Shown here piece after piece: positions 2,613 through 37,132 of a stretch of 38,090 nucleotides of DNA (its first letter is position 1; the number at the start of each line of letters is the position of its first letter). The DNA comes from Candidatus Gastranaerophilales bacterium. Its GTDB lineage: Bacteria > Cyanobacteriota > Vampirovibrionia > Gastranaerophilales > Gastranaerophilaceae. The position numbers and the translations under genes were made by a program. The notes beneath the pieces were generated by a model. It was not told the origin of the DNA. It saw nothing but the letters and a program-made list of their open reading frames with translations, and did no database searches. Where the stretch lies: assembly GCA_947584965.1 (NCBI GenBank), contig CANPWQ010000014.1, forward strand, positions 1 through 38,090, read 5' to 3'.

Positions 2613-2795
2613 ATGAATATTAACAGACTTCCCAACATGATACAACTTACTGGTGGCGATGGAGGTGGAAGGGGAAGATTGAATCAAACCTTAAAAAATC
2701 AATCTGACCAGGTTTGTATTAATAAAAGCCTAAACAAAACCCCAACTAAAAATGTAGGCAAAAATAATTCTAATAATATTGACTTAAGAGGTTAA
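2613..2795 (+). CDS. Small orphan protein, 60 residues
   Basis: Support for a real gene comes from its signals: an AGAAAGGAG Shine-Dalgarno 7 bases before ATG, and a strong hairpin terminator starting 11 bases after the stop. The product has a glycine-rich block (LTGGDGGGRGRLNQ, residues 12-25), one cysteine, and an Asn/Lys-rich tail ending in IDLRG. There is no signal peptide or membrane segment. I do not recognise it. A peptide precursor or a small regulatory protein is possible, but nothing in the sequence shows it. It stands alone between a MITE-like element and the QueC-like gene. Confidence 0.65.
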   Translation: MNINRLPNMIQLTGGDGGGRGRLNQTLKNQSDQVCINKSLNKTPTKNVGKNNSNNIDLRG

Positions 2796-3028: not shown

Positions 3029-4348
3029 TTATATTTTAAATTTTAAAAATAAAATGGTGTATTTCTTTTTCTTTGAATTATTTATTTTTTGAACACTGTA
3101 TAATTTGCGCAAAATGTTTTTTAAGATTATTTTTTTTCGCTGTTGGTTAAAATCAAATGTAACAAACCAGTTTAACTCCGGATAATCTGTCTGCAAATTT
3201 GGGGAGTTTATAAATTTTTTTTGCATTGACAGCCAATACTTATATGCAAAAAGTGTTGAAAAATTGTCTTGCAGGAATATTTTTTTTAAATCGTTTTGGG
3301 TTTTTTCTTTATCATAAATAAAACCGAATTCATTAGGATCATATCCTTCTATTATAATACCTATAATAGTTCTTAAGCATTTTTCACAAATATTGCAGTT
3401 AGAATTATTATTATTTTGTGATTCCCAGCATACATGAAGATTTATTTTATAATTATGATTTTGAGAGAACTCGCAAATATTATGAATTTTATCTTGCCTT
3501 TGAAATTCATAACCGTCGTGTACAACTTGTGCATCAATAAAACGAATTTCATTGTCTATTTCAGGAACACTGGCTAAGGGCTTTTTTATAATGTCTTTTG
3601 ATGAGTTTGTGGAAGCGAAATAAATAAATCTTGAATGATTAAGATATGCAATTGGTGCGGCATGAGTTATTACACCTAAGCTATGTTGGATTTCATGCCA
3701 CCAGCCTACTTCTCCTCCCCCCCCCCATATATTTCGCAGAGGTTTTATTAACTTCTCAACCCTTCCTGTAATAAATGATTTTAAATTTGTTTTAAAAAAA
3801 ACTGTATTCAAGTTAAAATCTTGTGCGGTTTGATTTACTTTTTGTTTAAAATCTTTAATACTTTCAATATTATTTGCATCAATGTCTGCGCCAAACATTG
3901 TCATAAGAATAGGTTTTTCTTTATAATGGCTTATTAAAGTTTGCCAAGCATCAGCACCCATTGAAAAAAAACTGACAGGCGCTCCAATTTTATCCGAATT
4001 ATTACTTATAACTTTATTTACCGTAATTTTTCCTCTAAACTTGAGCTTTTTCCATATTTTTTTGTAACCTGATTTAATATATTCCAGACGGTCATAAAAC
4101 GTTTTATCCAGTTCATCTACATATAAATTTGCATTACAAATCCATATAATGGGTAATACATTCCCCAATAATGGTATAACAGCAACAGAATCCGGAATTT
4201 CTTCAGTATTAATTTTAGGCTCTGCAATATATTCAATAAAAAATTTATCATTTTCGTTAAAATATTTTGCTAATTCTTTAGAATATTCATATTCATATTT
4301 AATGATATTTTTATTTTTAATTATTTTATTTATTTTAAAATATTTCAT
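3029..4348 (-). CDS. QueC-like PP-loop protein, phase-variable (in frame)
   Basis: A 439-residue protein. SFFSMGADAWQTL (about 125-137) resembles the N-type PP-loop (S-x-G-x-D-S) that binds ATP in QueC and related enzymes. The segment APIAYLNHSRFIYFASTNSS and the cysteine cluster C-N-I-C-E-K-C-L-R-T (about 340) match the QueC-type C-terminal half with its zinc site. The last Ser/Ala of the PP-loop deviates from consensus. Homologous folds make 7-cyano-7-deazaguanine, but this diverged form next to glycan genes probably has another substrate. Codons 208-211 (WGGG) are encoded by a run of ten G on the coding strand (3717-3726); the reading frame is intact. A one-base slip would remove the C-terminal half including the zinc site. 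It is divergent from the GT2/pyruvyltransferase gene at 4453. Confidence 0.65.
   Translation of the reverse strand: MKYFKINKIIKNKNIIKYEYEYSKELAKYFNENDKFFIEYIAEPKINTEEIPDSVAVIPLLGNVLPIIWICNANLYVDELDKTFYDRLEYIKSGYKKIWKKLKFRGKITVNKVISNNSDKIGAPVSFFSMGADAWQTLISHYKEKPILMTMFGADIDANNIESIKDFKQKVNQTAQDFNLNTVFFKTNLKSFITGRVEKLIKPLRNIWGGGGEVGWWHEIQHSLGVITHAAPIAYLNHSRFIYFASTNSSKDIIKKPLASVPEIDNEIRFIDAQVVHDGYEFQRQDKIHNICEFSQNHNYKINLHVCWESQNNNNSNCNICEKCLRTIIGIIIEGYDPNEFGFIYDKEKTQNDLKKIFLQDNFSTLFAYKYWLSMQKKFINSPNLQTDYPELNWFVTFDFNQQRKKIILKNILRKLYSVQKINNSKKKKYTILFLKFKI
3717..3726 (-). repeat. Poly-G(10) tract in the QueC-like gene
   Basis: Ten consecutive C on the plus strand read as ten G in the coding strand. 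With ten, the frame continues through WGGGGEVGWW. With nine or eleven, stop codons follow closely in both alternative frames (TAG or TGA within about 12 codons). Confidence 0.9.
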
Positions 4349-4452: not shown

Positions 4453-6498
4453 ATGTCAAAACCTAAAATATCTGTAATTGTTCCGATACATAATGATGAA
4501 AAATCTTTAAGAGTATGTCTTGACAGCTTATTTAATCAATCTTTTAATGATTTTGAAGTAATATGTGTTGATGATTGCAGTAGTGATTCTTCGGCTGATA
4601 TTCTTGAAGAATTTAAAAATAAGAATTCGAAAATAAATGTCATACATAATTCCAAAAAATTAGGAAATGCGACATCAAAAAACATTGGTCTGGATTTAGC
4701 AAACGGAGATTATTTATTTTTTCTTGATACCTCCAAGTACATGCCAAAATATACGTTAGAAAAATTATATAATAGTATTACACAATCAAACTCTGATATC
4801 GCAGTTTTAAATAAAATTCCGTTAAATAATTACCGTATTTGCTTAGAAAATTTTATAGAAACTATTGTAAAAATTAATATTTTTGAAAAGTTTAAATTGT
4901 ACTCAAAAAGTTTTATTACAAAAAATAGTGTTAAATTTATTCAAGAAGATAATATATATGATGAACAGAACTTTATAATTAAACTATTGTCAAATTTTCC
5001 GAAATTAACATTTATAAATTATATGGAACTTACGGATAGCATACCGGATAATGAAGATAAGCATCGAGTACATAATAAAATCGAAATGAAGGATATGCTA
5101 AATGATGTGTTTGAATATTTATATTCTAAAAATACAAAACCTCAAGCTGAAATTCTTTCCAGATTAATTAAAACTTCTAATTTATATAATAAGTATTTTG
5201 AAAAAAGTATTTTATTCGTTATAAAATATAAATTTTCAAAAGATGAAAAATATATTAAATTATTGGGAGTAGATTTATTTAAACAAAAAATTAAAGGGGC
5301 GGTAAAAGTTTTAAGAATTATCGGAATACCCGTATTAAAAAAATCCGTACCACCTTTGAAAGAAATAAAATTTGAATGTCATAATTCTGACTTAATTAAA
5401 AATTATTTTTGTACTTTAAAAACAGATAATAACAATCAAGATATAGAAAACGAATTAAAACAATTGGGAAAGTTTTATTTCATTCCGATTAATGGCAATT
5501 TAGGCGATTCAGTAATATGTTCATCCGAATATCAATATTTTTCTGCGAAACACTTAGAATATATTGTTTATAATTATAAAAATTCAATCATAACCCCGCA
5601 TTGCATAGTCTTTACGGGGGGGGGGATTTTTAATCGGTTATATACAGAAGTTTATAAAAATATACTTAAAATAGCAGATTCTCCGCTTATGCAAAGATGT
5701 GTTATTCTTCCCTCCAGCATTTATAATTGCGATGATGCAGTTAAAGCGTTTGATGAGCGATTTACCATATTTTGCCGAGAAAGACAAAGTTATGAATATT
5801 GTAAATCATTAAACTCAAAAGCAAAGTTTCTTTTAGCTGATGATATGGTCATAAATGCAGATTTCAGCAATTATAGTGAAAATTTTTATAATCGGCATAA
5901 TTTTGAAAAGTTTTTATCCTGCGGTGATGAATATATTAATTATATAAAAGATAAGATATTTCCTGTTTATCAAAAAGTCTTTTTTAATATATTATCACGT
6001 ATTAAAGACATATCTGACTATAATATCGGATTTATTATAAGAGAAGATGTTGAATCATTAAAACATTTCAATTTAAATGTAAAAACTTTTGATTTATCTG
6101 CTGCGAGCGATGGTTGTTTTGGTGATGAAGCATTATGTTTCATGATATCAAAGCTATTTATATCGGCAATTAACATATTTAATATAATTGTAACCGATAG
6201 ATTACATGTTGCTATTTGTGCTGCTAAACTTAATAAAGAGGTATATTTACTTGATAATTCATATAAGAAAAATTCTTCAATCTATAATTTTTCTTTAAGC
6301 GGATATAAAAATGTTCATTTAGTTTCATTTGATGAAATTGAAACTAATCTAAGCAAATATAAACAAAAAGAAAAACAAATTTCAAATGTGCTTAAAAATT
6401 TTAATGGTAATAAGTTGGAATTTATTTCTTTTAAAGATTTTTTATTGAAATATGGCAGTATTCCTCAAGAACATGATAAGAATAAAAGGTATATTTAA
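4453..6498 (+). CDS. GT2 glycosyltransferase fused to polysaccharide pyruvyl transferase, phase-variable (in frame)
   Basis: This 681-residue protein has two parts. Residues 1-125 are a GT-A family 2 domain: ISVIVPIHNDEKSL, VICVDDCSSDSS, GNATSKNIGL and a YLFFLDTSKY acceptor-side motif. Residues about 340-660 match polysaccharide pyruvyl transferase: INGNLGDSVI, FTGGGIFNR, FCRERQSY, and the TDRLHVAICAAKL...LLDNSY block typical of EpsO/CsaB-type enzymes, which attach ketal pyruvate from phosphoenolpyruvate. The conserved GGG motif (389-391) is encoded by a ten-G run at 5616-5625. A one-base slip there would leave the GT2 domain but delete the pyruvyl transferase core, so switching would change decoration more than chain transfer. 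There is no signal peptide, so it acts in the cytoplasm. The Shine-Dalgarno is weak. Confidence 0.8.
   Translation: MSKPKISVIVPIHNDEKSLRVCLDSLFNQSFNDFEVICVDDCSSDSSADILEEFKNKNSKINVIHNSKKLGNATSKNIGLDLANGDYLFFLDTSKYMPKYTLEKLYNSITQSNSDIAVLNKIPLNNYRICLENFIETIVKINIFEKFKLYSKSFITKNSVKFIQEDNIYDEQNFIIKLLSNFPKLTFINYMELTDSIPDNEDKHRVHNKIEMKDMLNDVFEYLYSKNTKPQAEILSRLIKTSNLYNKYFEKSILFVIKYKFSKDEKYIKLLGVDLFKQKIKGAVKVLRIIGIPVLKKSVPPLKEIKFECHNSDLIKNYFCTLKTDNNNQDIENELKQLGKFYFIPINGNLGDSVICSSEYQYFSAKHLEYIVYNYKNSIITPHCIVFTGGGIFNRLYTEVYKNILKIADSPLMQRCVILPSSIYNCDDAVKAFDERFTIFCRERQSYEYCKSLNSKAKFLLADDMVINADFSNYSENFYNRHNFEKFLSCGDEYINYIKDKIFPVYQKVFFNILSRIKDISDYNIGFIIREDVESLKHFNLNVKTFDLSAASDGCFGDEALCFMISKLFISAINIFNIIVTDRLHVAICAAKLNKEVYLLDNSYKKNSSIYNFSLSGYKNVHLVSFDEIETNLSKYKQKEKQISNVLKNFNGNKLEFISFKDFLLKYGSIPQEHDKNKRYI
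5616..5625 (+). repeat. Poly-G(10) tract in the pyruvyl transferase domain
   Basis: The run starts at the third base of the Thr codon and supplies the three following Gly codons (T-G-G-G). The open frame continues for almost 300 codons downstream, so the ten-G state is ON. Confidence 0.9.
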
Positions 6499-7427: not shown

Positions 7428-8720
7428 ATGAATATATGCATTATAGGAACAGGTTATGTGGGATTAGTTGCCGGCGCATGTTTCGCGGATATGGGCAACA
7501 GTGTTATTTGCATGGATAAAGATTCCGAAAAAATAGAAAAGTTAAAACGGGGAATTATTCCCATCTATGAACCGGGGCTTAGTGAATTAATCGAAAAAAA
7601 TGTGCAAGCAAATCGTTTAGAATTTACAGATGATATTAAATATTCAACTGAAAAATCTAAAGTATGTATAATAACGGTAGCAACTCCTCAGGATAAAGAC
7701 GGTTCTTGTAATTTAAGTGCGGTTATAGAAGTTGCAGAAGAAATAGCAAAGTATAGCAAAGAATATAAGGTATTAGTAAATAAATCAACAGTTCCCGTAG
7801 GAACGGCAGATAAAATAAAACAAATAATAAAAAAAATAACAAATGTCCCTATTGATATAGTTTCAAATCCTGAATTTTTAAAGCAAGGAAGTGCCGTAGA
7901 TAATTTTTTATCTCCCGATAGAGTAATAATAGGGTCAGATTCTGAAAAAGCATTAAAAATAATGCAGGATATATATTCTACATATTTTAAAAAAAATAAC
8001 AGAATAATGACAATGGATATAAAATCGGCAGAAATGACAAAATATGCAGCCAATGCCTTTTTATCGGCAAAAATTTCTTTTATAAATGAAATTGCAAATT
8101 TATGTTCAAAGGTTGGAGCAGATGTAGAACAAGTTAGGCTTGGAATATCAGCAGATACAAGAATAGGTAATAAATTTTTATTCCCCGGTATAGGCTTTGG
8201 AGGAAGTTGTTTTCCTAAAGATGTAAATGCCTTGATAGCCATTGCAAAAGAAAACGGTTGTGAAAGCAGAATGCTTGAAGCTGTAAGAGATGTAAATATT
8301 AATCAAAGAAAAATATTTCTTAATAAAATAATAAATTATTACAACGGAGATATAAAAGGTAAAACATTCGCTATTTGGGGATTAGCATTTAAGCCGAAAA
8401 CAAATGATATGAGAGAAGCCCCCTCTATTGATATCATAAACGGATTAATTGAACGCGGGGCTAAAATAAAAGCCTATGATCCTAAAGCTATGGACAATGC
8501 AAAAAAAATATTCGGAAATAAAATAGAATATACTAATTACTCATTTCAAGTATTTGATAATGCTGATGCACTTATATTGTTAACAGAATGGAATGATTTT
8601 AGAAATCCGGATTTTGAAGTAATAAAATCAAAATTAAAAGATAAAATAATATTTGACGGAAGAAATCAATATAATCGTGAGATGTTAAAAAATTTGGGTA
8701 TAAATTATATAAATATATAA
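7428..8720 (+). CDS. ugd: UDP-glucose 6-dehydrogenase
   Basis: The 430-residue length and all three domains fit the UDP-glucose/GDP-mannose dehydrogenase family. The N-terminal Rossmann motif is GTGYVGLVAGACFA (residues 7-20). The NAD-side STVPVGT block is near 124. The catalytic cysteine is in GFGGSCFPKD at about residue 261. The C-terminal UDP-binding part has FKPKTNDMREAPS. It oxidises UDP-glucose to UDP-glucuronate in two NAD-dependent steps, a precursor for acidic surface polysaccharides. An AGGA Shine-Dalgarno lies upstream of ATG. It is transcribed alone; its nearest functional partners are the glycan genes on both sides. Confidence 0.95.
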   Translation: MNICIIGTGYVGLVAGACFADMGNSVICMDKDSEKIEKLKRGIIPIYEPGLSELIEKNVQANRLEFTDDIKYSTEKSKVCIITVATPQDKDGSCNLSAVIEVAEEIAKYSKEYKVLVNKSTVPVGTADKIKQIIKKITNVPIDIVSNPEFLKQGSAVDNFLSPDRVIIGSDSEKALKIMQDIYSTYFKKNNRIMTMDIKSAEMTKYAANAFLSAKISFINEIANLCSKVGADVEQVRLGISADTRIGNKFLFPGIGFGGSCFPKDVNALIAIAKENGCESRMLEAVRDVNINQRKIFLNKIINYYNGDIKGKTFAIWGLAFKPKTNDMREAPSIDIINGLIERGAKIKAYDPKAMDNAKKIFGNKIEYTNYSFQVFDNADALILLTEWNDFRNPDFEVIKSKLKDKIIFDGRNQYNREMLKNLGINYINI

Positions 8721-26038: not shown

Positions 26039-27053
26039 CTATAAGTTATTATCATTTTTTTCTTTAACATTTTTCTTATTTATTTTTATTGTCCAAAAAA
26101 GAATATGATATATTCTTCTTTCTTCTGTTTCTTCATATACAAATATTTTATAAAATAACCTTAAATGATATTTTATTTTTTGTTGTAATGTCATTTCTGC
26201 TTTTAAGGAAGAATATTGATTATAATACCACCATTCATTTGATTTTGCCATTAATACATTTTTCCAAGGTTTTATTTTTTCCGTATAATGTATTATTTTA
26301 GGATGTTTTGCACAATATTTTATATATTTTTTATTTTTATTGGTTTTGACAATTTTATCATTACGATAAAAACTGTCTTGAACATTCCAGCTTAAATCAA
26401 GCGGTATTACTTTTTCATGGCATACATCATTAATAAGTTCCTGATCCAATTGCAATTTATATTTTCCCTGCTTCCCTGCTTCAAGAAGTTTTTGGACTAT
26501 TTTATCTTCCCGCCATTTTTTTAAGTTTATTAATAATACTCCGGTATTTATACAAAAATAATCATAAGGAAAAACATTTTTCCAATATTTACCTAAATAT
26601 GTACAACCTATATCCTCTACACCCGCAATATAATTTTCGTTTAAGTCTATATCATACAACTCTTTTAATGACGTTTTTATAATAAGATCACAATCCAAAT
26701 ATATTAATTTATCTAACTCAGGCAATATATCTGCTAAATACATTCTTGAGTATGTCGTTTTAGTTATGTGCGAGTGTGCTTCTTCACACCCCCCCCCCAC
26801 ACATATATTGAATATCAGAATCAAAGTTTTTTAATTTATCAGAATTTAAATCCATAAAGTTTATGCTAAAATCTTTAATGGTTTTTAATTCTTTAATTTT
26901 ATTTTTTAACTCATCCGGCACTTGATTACACAAAATTATAAAATTTAACTTATCAGAACCGGAAGCATTCTTTAATATCGATGTTATGACAACCGACAAC
27001 GGTTGAAAATAGTTTTTATCCGAAACCAATGCTATATTAATTGTTTCATCCAT
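26039..27053 (-). pseudogene. GT8 glycosyltransferase, phase-variable, frameshifted (OFF) at a poly-G tract
   Basis: The N-terminal frame (27053 to 26784, 89 residues: TINIALVSDKNYFQPLSVVI, typical GT8 start) stops two codons after a run of ten G. The adjacent frame (ending 26039) carries the rest: SHITKTTYSRMYLADILPEL, YLDCDLII with the D-x-D metal site, GVEDIG, FNTGVLLINL-like CINTGVLLINLKKWR, and DQELINDV. With nine G the two join without gap into 337 residues, a normal GT8 length. So it is better called a switched-off gene than a decayed one: no other lesion is seen in either part. The OFF product lacks the D-x-D site. The start lies within the end of rfbG (22-base overlap), so it belongs to the rfbF operon. 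Confidence 0.88.
26789..26798 (-). repeat. Poly-G(10) tract splitting the GT8 gene
   Basis: Ten C on the plus strand equal ten G in the coding strand after the TGT codon. Ten G gives C-G-G-G-V then TGA. Nine G gives C-G-G-G-C-E-E and continues to the end of the GT8 domain. Confidence 0.92.
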
Positions 27054-30136: not shown

Positions 30137-31687
30137 ATGGATAATGAAAAAGAAAATATTATAATAATTGGCGCAGGCCCCGCAGGATTAAGCTGTGCAT
30201 ATTACTTTCTTAAATATACGGACTTAAAGCCTGTAATTATTGAAGCAAGCGAATTTATCGGCGGAATTTCAAGAACTCACTTTCATAACGGAAACCGCAT
30301 GGATTTAGGCGGTCACAGATTTTTTACCAAAAGTGAAGAGGTAATGAATTTATGGAAAGAAATTTTCCCCGTTCAAACTTCACCCTCGAAAGATGAAATA
30401 ATGCTTGGCGCTAAACCCTGCGAAGATAAAACCGCCGACCCCGAAATTAATGATATTGTCTTTTTAAAACGCAGACGTATTTCAAGAATTTTCTTTTTAA
30501 AAAAGTTTTTTGATTATCCTATATCATTTAAACTTCAAACTTTTATAAATCTCGGTTTAATTAATGTTTTAAAAGCAGGTATTGGATTTTTTATTGCCAA
30601 TATTCATAAACGCAGAGAAAACTCGCTTGAGGACTTTTACATTAACAGATTTGGCAAAAATTTATATAAAATGTTTTTTGAGAACTACACCGAAAAAGTA
30701 TGGGGCATTCACCCGAATAAAATTTCTCCCGACTGGGGAAGCCAAAGAGTTAAAGGGTTATCTTTACTTTCTGTTTTAAAAAATGCTATTTTCAAACCTT
30801 TTATAAAAAAAGAAAAAATTGAAACTTCTTTAATTGAAGAATTTTTATATCCGAAAAAAGGCCCGGGGCAGCTATATGAACAAATGGCAGAAATCATTAC
30901 AAACAAAGGCGGGAGCATTATTTTAAATAATACGGTTATTGGTATTAATTTTACAAATAACAATATTTCATCAGTACAAACAGTTGATAAAGACGGGCAA
31001 AATCATACTTTTAACTGCAAAGCCGTATTTTCTTCCATGCCCGTTAAGGATTTAATAAACTCTTTTAATAAAGAAATTGACGAAAAGATAAAAGAAACGG
31101 CATTAAATTTGCCGTACAGAGATTTTATGACAGCAGGACTATTAGTCAGGAAAATGGCTGTAAAAAATACAACAAAATATAAAACCGTCGGTAATATAAT
31201 TCCCGATTGCTGGATTTATATTCAAGAGCGGGATGTAAAACTCGGCAGAGTTCAAATTTTTAATAATTGGTCGCCATATATGGTTAAGGATTTTGAAAAT
31301 ACCGTTTGGCTCGGACTTGAATATTTCTGCAATGAAAATGACGAATTATGGTCTATGGAAGATAATGATTTTATTTCTATGGCAAAATGCGAGCTTGAAA
31401 AAACAGGACTTATAAAACAAGAAGATGTTTTGGATTCTGCGGTTATAAGGGTTAAAAAAGCATACCCTGCATACTTTGGAGCTTATAAAGACTTTAATAT
31501 CATAAAAGAATACTTAAATACAATAGAAAACCTTTATTGCATAGGCAGAAACGGCCAGCACAGGTATAACAATATGGACCACTCTATTTTAACGGGGCTG
31601 GAAGCGGTAAAGGCATTTATTAATAATTCTTCCAAAGAAAACATCTGGAGCGTAAATACCGAAAATGAATACCACGAACAAAAATAA
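30137..31687 (+). CDS. FAD-dependent oxidoreductase, UDP-galactopyranose mutase/amine-oxidase-like
   Basis: A 516-residue flavoprotein. The dinucleotide-binding motif [15 protein letters not shown] is at 8-22, then [14 protein letters not shown] and the [16 protein letters not shown] segment typical of UGM-like and protoporphyrinogen-oxidase-like proteins. The C-terminus has the FAD end motif [18 protein letters not shown]. Family members near glycan genes often act as mutases or dehydrogenases on nucleotide- or lipid-linked sugars; the substrate cannot be read from sequence. The last 23 bases overlap the next gene. Head of a four-gene operon up to 36107. Confidence 0.75.
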
Positions 31688-33329
31688 TCTGCTTGAAATT
31701 ATTATCTTTTCAATTTTTTGTATATCGGTTATTATTTTATCCTGTTTTCATGAACCTTGGTTTGATGAACTGCAAGCGTGGGGAATTTCTAAAGATACAA
31801 TTTTCAATATTTTATTTGTAATCCCGCATTATGAAGGACATCCTCCGCTTTGGCATTTACTTTTAAAACCGTTCTCCGTAATGAATTTATATCCCGATAC
31901 GGGATTAAAAATTGTTAATTTTGCTTTTATGCTTCCTGCCGTTTGGCTGTTAATTTTCAAGTCAAAATTACCCCCCCCCGTGAGGTTTTTACTTCCTTTT
32001 ACTTATTTTATTTTTTATCAGTATTCAATAATTTCCAGACCATATTGCATTTATTGTTTAGCTATGTTTTTAATTGCTTGTTTTTACAATACAAAAAATG
32101 AACACCCGTTTATGTTCACTACTTTTCTGGCTCTACTGTCATTATCCTGCTCTTTTGGAATGGCTGTGGCTTGCGGACTTTCTTTAGTTTGGATTATTGA
32201 ACTGATTAAATCTAAAACTCCTTTTAAGGATAAATCTTTTATTTCTCTGTTAATATTGTTTATTTTTGCCTGCATTATTGTAGTGCTTATAATACCCGAT
32301 AAATATAATTACCAATTTGCAAATTTATGTGCAAAAGATAATATTGTCAGATGTATATATTCTTTCCTTATTATGCCGGCAGACGCTTTAATATATGATT
32401 TTTATAATTATGATAATAATTCCATTCACTTTATTGATTTTAATTATTATATAAACCCTACAACCAACGGAGTAATGGCTAAATTACAAGTTATGTTTTT
32501 TACTGGATGTTTTTTGGGGATAATTTTAAATACATTGTTAATTTGCTTTTTTATAAAAACAAAAAATTTTTTATTATTTTTTATTCCTTATATTTTATTT
32601 ATGGTAAGCGGAATATATTATATAAGTCCTCATCACGCAGGATTATTAACGGTATTACTAATATCACTGTTTTGGATTGTATTTAGTAAAAATGATATTA
32701 ACTTAAATAACGGATTTAAGAAATTACTTGTTCTTTTTACCGTATTAACTATGGGAGTTCAGATTTATTGGAGTATCTTTGCCGGTATTCATGAAATAAA
32801 ATACGATTTTTACCCTGCAAAAGCTCAATATAATTATATAAAACAACACCGGCTTGATAAGTATAAACTTATGGCAGATTGGCAGATGATAGGACCGCTT
32901 ATAATAAATAACAAAACAAAAAAATTATATATAGAAAACGGAATTAATAACAGGAATAAGAATACCATTCATTTTCTTTCCAATGATTATAGTATTATAA
33001 CGCAACAGGAACCTGAAATCCAATGGATATCAACTTGCATTAATCAATATTTCAACAAAAATATATTTTATAACGGCAATAATAAACTTTATACTATTCA
33101 CAAATACACAACTCCATCCGAAAGATTAAAGATTTTTAATAATTGGAGAAATTTAGGAATACCTGATATTATTGTTGATACACTAAATATTAATGACGTT
33201 TTTTTAGATAAAAATTCATTATCTGAAAATTATATTTTACTTAAATCTTTTGATTATAAAATCATATTTAAAAACAGTTATTCATCTAAGTCTTCAAAAT
33301 TTTATATTAATAAAGATTTAAAATTATAA
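31665..33329 (+). CDS. GT39-like membrane glycosyltransferase, phase-variable (in frame)
   Basis: A 554-residue protein with about nine to eleven transmembrane helices in the first 370 residues and a soluble C-terminal part. The first outer loop has [16 protein letters not shown] (about 28-43), matching the acidic D-E loop of PMT/ArnT-type (GT39-like) enzymes, which use polyprenyl-linked sugars outside the membrane. [15 protein letters not shown] follows. Codons 103-105 (P-P-P) are encoded by nine C (31971-31979), in frame. A slip would truncate the protein after the second membrane segment. It is a close paralogue of the next gene, very similar at the DNA level in the first 500 bases. It starts within the end of the flavoprotein gene. 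Confidence 0.75.
31971..31979 (+). repeat. Poly-C(9) tract in the GT39-like gene
   Basis: Nine C encode P-P-P in KLPPPVRF. The paralogue at 33339 has KLPAPVKF there, with the run broken by a G (CCCGCCCC), so only this copy is expected to slip. Confidence 0.9.
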
Positions 33330-36214: not shown

Positions 36215-37132
36215 TTAATGATTTACTAATATATTTATTAATGCTTGTGTCAGAGGATAACCTGTTTTCTTTTCTACATTAATGAACATAGGAGCAGGAT
36301 TAGCTTCAATGAAAACATATTCATTTTTTGAATTTAATCTTATATCAATACCCGAATATTTTAAATCACAAATTTTCATAACTTTTAAACAATCTTGTTT
36401 TACCTTTTCAGGCAGTTCTATAGGAATCAATTCTGCATTTCCGTCGGTTCTAAAGTCGATATTATCTGTTCGAATTTCTAAAGCATAAATTTCTTCTTGG
36501 TAAGCATAAACTCGAATGTCAGTACCATCAATATATTCTTGGAATTGAACAGGAGAAACAATTAGTTGTGATAATTTCTGTTTAGTAAAATCATCTTTAG
36601 TCATTTTTTTAGTATATGCACCGCCGCGTACAGGTTTTAAAATTATTTGCTCATTATTAGATTCAAAAAAATCTAAAACAGAATCTTTATCATTTGTTAT
36701 TAAAGTTCTAGGTACTCTTATGTTATTTTTCTTAAACAAATTAGTAAGATAAGGCTTTTTCTTATGTAGTTCAAATGCATTTATTGAATTAACCCAATTA
36801 ATTTTTAAGGAATAAAAAAGACTGTATAAAGCAGATTCACGCTCACGGTATACCATATTAGACAAAAAATCAGTATTATCCCCATCATCAATTGTTTCAT
36901 TTTTAATACCGGAAAAGTTTCTCCAGTATACACTTTTAATATCGGAAAAATCAATTTTTTTGTTATCTATAATTATACTGCCTGAATTTTCACAATCCGC
37001 TTTCCAGCTGAAAAGTACATCATATGGATATTGAGCAGTATCTAAGAAACAATATTCTTCTTTAATATCTTGAAGATGTTTTGCAACGTGTTTTGCATGT
37101 TCTTCTTCTTTATAACCTAAAATAACAATCAT
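36215..37132 (-). CDS. ATP-grasp ligase, MvdC/MvdD (graspetide synthetase)-like
   Basis: A 305-residue protein. The N-terminal part (IVILGYKEEEHAKHVAKHL, DIKSVYWRNFSG) has the layout of the pre-ATP-grasp domain of microviridin-type ligases, with YWRN in place of the usual W-Y-R-R. The ATP-grasp domain follows: IILKPVRGGAY (nucleotide Lys), VQFQEYIDGTDIRVYAY, and YSGIDIRLNSKNEYVFIEANPAP with the metal-binding E-x-N. Such enzymes join side-chain carboxylates to Thr/Ser/Lys in ribosomal peptides; RimK-type peptide ligases are the alternative. An AGAGG Shine-Dalgarno is present. A 47-codon frame on the same strand upstream (37201-37344) could be its substrate. Confidence 0.7.
   Translation of the reverse strand: MIVILGYKEEEHAKHVAKHLQDIKEEYCFLDTAQYPYDVLFSWKADCENSGSIIIDNKKIDFSDIKSVYWRNFSGIKNETIDDGDNTDFLSNMVYRERESALYSLFYSLKINWVNSINAFELHKKKPYLTNLFKKNNIRVPRTLITNDKDSVLDFFESNNEQIILKPVRGGAYTKKMTKDDFTKQKLSQLIVSPVQFQEYIDGTDIRVYAYQEEIYALEIRTDNIDFRTDGNAELIPIELPEKVKQDCLKVMKICDLKYSGIDIRLNSKNEYVFIEANPAPMFINVEKKTGYPLTQALINILVNH

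Follow-up and report, generated by a model that had tools for sequence, protein, structure and literature searches.

A candidate phase-variable PP-loop enzyme of the QueC/QatC branch, encoded among surface-glycan genes in a gut lineage of the Cyanobacteriota

The PP-loop proteins of family PF06508 were surveyed in 2026 in a study that covers QueC, QatC, Cap9, LarE, NASAT and GMP synthase, and in which the words polysaccharide, glycosyltransferase and pyruvyl are not used (PMC13329287). One of these proteins, WbpG/NASAT, belongs to the QueC superfamily and is a zinc-binding PP-loop enzyme whose substrates are LPS sugars (PMC10607449; cluster 5 of PMC13329287). The closest described system of a different kind is the set of poly-G contingency loci of Campylobacter, whose tracts are 9G in 52% and 10G in 30% of cases (PMC6321876); a 2025 review notes that multi-locus phase-variable genomes seem to be limited to pathogens, with database bias as a possible cause (PMC11868660). 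Our literature searches found no report of multi-locus phase variation for gut Cyanobacteriota and no paper joining QueC, PP-loop and polysaccharide. Here we describe a gene from a Candidatus Gastranaerophilales bacterium, in a window of 38,090 nucleotides (the whole stretch of DNA that was analysed; GenBank contig CANPWQ010000014.1), which resembles both systems. On balance, the best explanation is that it encodes a member of the PP-loop ATP-pyrophosphatase superfamily, in the QueC/QatC branch, that tailors a surface glycan and is phase variable, a reading that we hold to be reasonably probable.

The gene occupies positions 3029-4348 of the minus strand, begins with ATG and encodes a protein of 439 amino acids with a PP-loop of the QueC/QatC fold. 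Its PP-loop motif, S-M-G-A-D-A (residues 129-134; 3947-3964, minus strand), is recognized from the sequence and from alignments, and a QueC-type zinc cysteine cluster, C307-x10-C318-xx-C321-xx-C324 (NCNICEKCLRT; 3377-3430, minus strand), from its sequence pattern; cysteines are found at positions 71, 292, 307, 318, 321 and 324, relative to a PP-loop beginning at 129. A tract of ten G lies on the coding strand at 3717-3726 (minus strand), in the codons of a WGGGG motif that falls in a low-confidence loop of the structural model (residues 209-212). The reading frame, both motifs, the tract and the divergent orientation with respect to a glycan enzyme are all present as an earlier note on this DNA had described them. 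Family alignments display F-[S/T]-G-G-x-D-[S/A], S-x-P near residue 260, R284 and C...NCxxCEKCxRT, with [S/T]GGxD[S/A] as the usual PP-loop motif among relatives. The zinc motif of the window protein, Cx10CxxCxxC, is a spacing variant of Cx8CxxCxxC, which is found in its exact form in the nearest relatives (L002, L047 and L003).

The AlphaFold2 (AF2) model of the window protein, built from a nine-sequence alignment (pLDDT 82.8, pTM 0.83), contains the Rossmann-like core of a PP-loop ATPase, as does the model of the relative L047 (pLDDT 84.5). A Foldseek comparison with the PDB returned QatC as the sole match below E 0.001 (E 4.6e-5). Structural alignment with VIA-align superposed model residues 1-398 on residues 4-457 of QatC (9y01_B; Z 14.3, 314 residues, rmsd 5.6), which is nearly the full length, with the N- and C-terminal extensions around the QueC core included; QueC followed (3bl5/2pg3; Z 13.3, core region), then Cap9 (Z 11.8), with the remaining PP-loop enzymes below Z 10. 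The model of L047 gave the same order of matches (QatC Z 14.7). NASAT (8WEX) was not among the 50 fold matches listed, an absence that does not exclude similarity. Profile comparison by hhalign with the canonical QueC of the same genome gave a probability of 95%, with both the PP-loop and the Cys cluster aligned, and a profile search of the PDB returned mostly PP-loop enzymes as best matches, led weakly by QatC (E 0.14). The earlier note had taken the gene to encode a QueC-like PP-loop protein; we regard a QueC-related PP-loop fold as practically certain, and a QueC-type fold bearing a QatC-like N-terminal extension is strongly supported.

Despite sharing the PP-loop core with QueC, and the exact Cx8CxxCxxC motif in its nearest relatives, the window protein is about twice as long, has no match to Pfam QueC (PF06508) above the gathering score, and is encoded away from queD and queE, neither of which is named among the annotated neighbors of the homologues or in Pfam scans of the window. 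Weak matches to PF06508 were obtained for four of 12 relatives (best E 0.006), and the QueC motifs YxQxHxxE, VPxRN and YPDC (PMC13329287) are absent by pattern in all 20 members. As the specific motifs and the operon partners of QueC and QatC are missing, we do not claim membership in either group. A role in queuosine synthesis or DNA modification was considered and rejected, since no linked que or modification gene was seen and a canonical QueC is encoded elsewhere in the genome (contig C15); no evidence was found for the modification of DNA or RNA that the earlier note had offered as an option. DUF6395 (PF19932) resembles the family in its SGGVDS motif, C-terminal Cys cluster and similar length (hhalign 79%), but is a separate Pfam family with no match to the window protein, and is a sister PP-loop family, on which our searches found no paper. 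One DUF6395 protein (L003 16117-17433, minus strand) shares a Priestia plasmid glycan region with a member of the window family.

Searches with the window protein alone found no match in Pfam, NCBIfam, PADLOC or PDB sequences, none in phages by tblastn, and none among viral contigs (IMG/VR) with the single sequence as query. The family is nevertheless widespread, and is as yet unnamed: relatives occur in a Tenericutes MAG (37% identity), in 17 plasmid records from Priestia, Pseudobutyrivibrio and haloarchaea (25-31%), in cyanobacteria, and, with an alignment as query, in eight IMG/VR contigs. Four species of a sister genus have the same PP-loop/zinc domain joined to a D-Ala-D-Ala carboxypeptidase domain of the Peptidase_S11 family (L039 835-2706, L040 793-2655, L041 583-2445 and L043 736-2604), which hints at a cell-wall role. 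Closer to the window, a search of 34 other genomes from the same genus did not find the gene, and for the pyruvyl-transferase part of its neighbor (see below) a smaller sample of genomes gave no same-genus match among those listed. Given this lack of same-genus matches, gene and neighbor together resemble an island that was acquired. The genome also lacks PF00124 reaction-center genes, which are present in same-phylum genomes, and we therefore take the organism to be non-photosynthetic; genome size, low G+C and gene content suit a gut lineage of the Gastranaerophilales type.

On one side the gene is flanked by HNH and zeta-toxin-like genes, and on the other by genes that Pfam assigns to glycan metabolism: the divergent neighbor (4453-6498, plus strand) encodes a glycosyltransferase 2 (GT2) domain fused to a polysaccharide pyruvyl transferase (PF04230), and is followed by a gene of the UDP-glucose/GDP-mannose dehydrogenase family (7428-8720, plus strand), which could possibly supply uronic acid. 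A 60-residue frame with a glycine-rich stretch and no family match adjoins the PP-loop gene (2613-2795, plus strand), and a RimK-like ATP-grasp protein with an MvdD pre-ATP-grasp domain, a relative of graspetide-type ligases, is encoded at 36215-37132 (minus strand). Across bacteria, archaea and cyanobacteria, the genes around family members encode glycosyltransferases, flippases, sugar dehydrogenases and the like; every neighborhood seen is either a surface-glycan cluster or made up of phage genes, and none is a queuosine or Qat operon. The earlier note had named the lack of a predicted PP-loop fold, or homologues always in queuosine clusters, as refuting its reading, and neither was seen. 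Within a small test set comprising six cyanobacterial genomes and that of the window, picked by family match rather than neighborhood and having two to three PF04230 genes each, five of nine loci have a PF04230 gene within 3 kb against 0.04 expected (P 2.5e-10), a statistically strong association with pyruvyl transferases. The glycan setting that the earlier note had pointed out is thus borne out by homologue neighborhoods and by these statistics, and the window gene very probably belongs to a surface-glycan pathway. Glycan plasmids of Priestia carry tandem pairs of family members (L003 7515-8723 and 8923-10128; L004 7536-8744 and 8935-10140). On the prophage-type contigs L047, L048, L050, L051 and L052 the family gene is single and lies amid phage genes, an arrangement suggestive of lysogenic surface conversion; in L052 a flippase-like gene directly follows it.

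The G10 tract of the PP-loop gene does not arise by chance: it is one of four G runs of at least nine in the window (seven overlapping 9-mer matches), where dinucleotide shuffles give an expectation of 0.00. Another G10 tract (5616-5625, plus strand) falls at the FTGGGIF glycine motif of the GT2/pyruvyl transferase gene, which is assembled in frame; a third (26789-26798, minus strand) was placed by frame analysis at the break of a glycosyltransferase 8 (GT8) gene (26039-27053, minus strand) that is assembled OFF, in two frames (26784-27053 and 26039-26824); and a run of nine G on the minus strand (31971-31979), C9 on the coding strand, is in frame inside the gene at 31665-33329 (plus strand). 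Genome-wide there are 42 G tracts of at least nine and none of exactly seven. The run-length spectrum over about 176 kb, made up of the window and tract-bearing stretches, a choice that enriches the 9-12 class but not the gap below it, holds 32 runs of five, one of six, none of seven or eight and 41 of nine to twelve, and we conclude that the tracts form a real class. Tract counts range from 0 to 119 among same-genus species, many having 20-119 and some none, while in most other genera of the order 7G runs outnumber 9G runs.

Those tract genes that Pfam recognizes belong mostly to glycan-related families. About 13 tract genes are clearly in frame as against five split at the tract (in silico shifts and assembled frames), in an assembly of 74 contigs where homopolymers are error-prone and where the single assembled state of a gene may reflect either a true OFF variant or a homopolymer error; the split genes are the GT8 gene of the window, two GT2-type genes (one judged by eye), a LicD and a GT-D gene. 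Removal or addition of one G at 3717-3726 in silico leaves a longest spanning frame of 232 or 218 amino acids, and the off-frame product is truncated before the Cys cluster. The Campylobacter contingency loci are similar in having G9/G10 tracts within surface-glycan frames by the dozen per genome, and the proportions here, 25 of 41 tracts being 9G and 14 of 41 being 10G, are much like theirs (PMC6321876). The two organisms differ in phylum, and the Cyanobacteriota genome of the window has mutS and mutL domains, on which ground mismatch-repair loss was rejected as the cause of the tracts. Campylobacter is not known to have mutS or mutL. Judged from these sequence features, the genome-wide set looks like a multi-locus phasome, and the phase variation of the PP-loop gene that the earlier note had proposed, by switching through its G10 tract, is highly likely. 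That mutS and mutL are present might be taken to mean that the tract is incidental and the gene not switched; the tract-length spectrum, the abundance of tracts across the genus and the glycan genes split at tracts make this improbable.

Of the functions that could be assigned to such a protein, phage defense is suggested by QatC (9y01; PMC13279940), which among solved structures comes closest along almost the whole protein and shares a QueC-type core with a beta/alpha extension at the N-terminus and a helical part at the C-terminus, a length of about 400 amino acids and the combination of a PP-loop with a C-terminal four-Cys site. Like QatC, many members also bear an HP motif close to the active site (PMC13329287), and phase variation is possible for phage defense genes. 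The protein would then be a QatC/Cap9-like modifier placing a deazaguanine-type group on the N-terminus of a partner protein, which we consider quite unlikely: the spacing of the Cys site is not alike, the motifs Cx19CGxCxxRR and D(x)4R(x)7WxR are missing by pattern in all 20 members, PADLOC gives no QatC match for the family proteins themselves, and neither the HNH, zeta-toxin-like and glycan genes around the window gene nor the other neighborhoods seen include qatA/qatD-like genes (qatB has no Pfam model; PMC13329287). Superfamily and context would also agree with an amidotransferase that converts an N-acetyl sugar to an acetamidino sugar, as NASAT/WbpG is a PP-loop enzyme with a zinc tetracysteine in a surface-sugar pathway (8WEX; PMC10607449). 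This precedent also makes two statements of the earlier note too strong, namely that QueC relatives make deazaguanine bases and not sugars, and that a PP-loop ligase acting on a surface molecule would be new. In NASAT, however, the Cys motif (CxxC...[GN]xCxxC) precedes the PP-loop, while in the window protein the cluster follows it, as in QueC; the pattern CxxCxn[GN]xCxxC is absent from the window protein, no hisH/hisF-like ammonia-supply genes are found among the annotated neighbors, and we give an activity of this kind little credence.

A different concern is that the window copy is decaying or catalytically dead, SMGADA marking the loss of ATP chemistry in a relic of horizontal transfer. 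The earlier note had described this motif as diverged from S-x-G-x-D-S; measured against the usual motif of the family, the final Ala is common to some relatives, while the Met is private to the window copy. The second position of SGGxDS is Gly in all 19 other aligned members and Met130 in the window copy alone (n = 20), so that this copy is of uncertain activity and could have altered catalysis or none; the full SGGxDS is found in about half of the 19, and the window motif is not intact. The absence of the gene from the other same-genus genomes searched fits a relic too. Set against this, the 439-residue frame is intact, 16 of the 17 columns conserved in at least 90% of the 19 other members are kept, the Cys site, Asp133 and Arg284 among them, with Gly130 to Met as the sole change, and in bearing a G tract the gene resembles other contingency genes. 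In the sister genus the motif reads SRG[IV]DS in three species and SRGISS in one, and position 2 can therefore vary. A dead copy thus seems unlikely.

The surface-glycan tailoring enzyme that we prefer suggests a model for the activity of the locus. Slipped-strand mispairing at the G10 tract would switch the gene on and off at random, ten G giving the ON state and nine or 11 a product that ends short of the zinc site. In the ON state, the enzyme would spend ATP to adenylate a carboxylate of the glycan or its precursor, either a pyruvate ketal or a uronate, and the activated carboxylate would be passed to ammonia or an amine to give an amide-type group, in the manner of QueC acting on carboxy-deazaguanine. 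The proposal of a carboxylate substrate draws on the chemistry of QueC together with the pyruvyl-transferase and dehydrogenase neighbors, and by this analogy it is offered tentatively; since the haloarchaeal loci have no annotated pyruvyl transferase nearby, the carboxylate donor would not be uniform across the family. It is more doubtful that both parts hold together, with the family activating surface-glycan carboxylates, which would be new for the fold, and a Campylobacter-like poly-G phasome switching it with mismatch repair present.

If this model is correct, a fold whose known roles lie in tRNA bases and phage defense would gain a surface-glycan branch, and a family missed by Pfam, NCBIfam and PADLOC would have a testable function. 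The dozens of G9-G12 tracts, located mostly at glycan genes and found across the genus, point to phase variation at multiple loci in gut Cyanobacteriota, and random switching of surface sugars would bear on how a common gut lineage resists phages and is recognized by the immune system.
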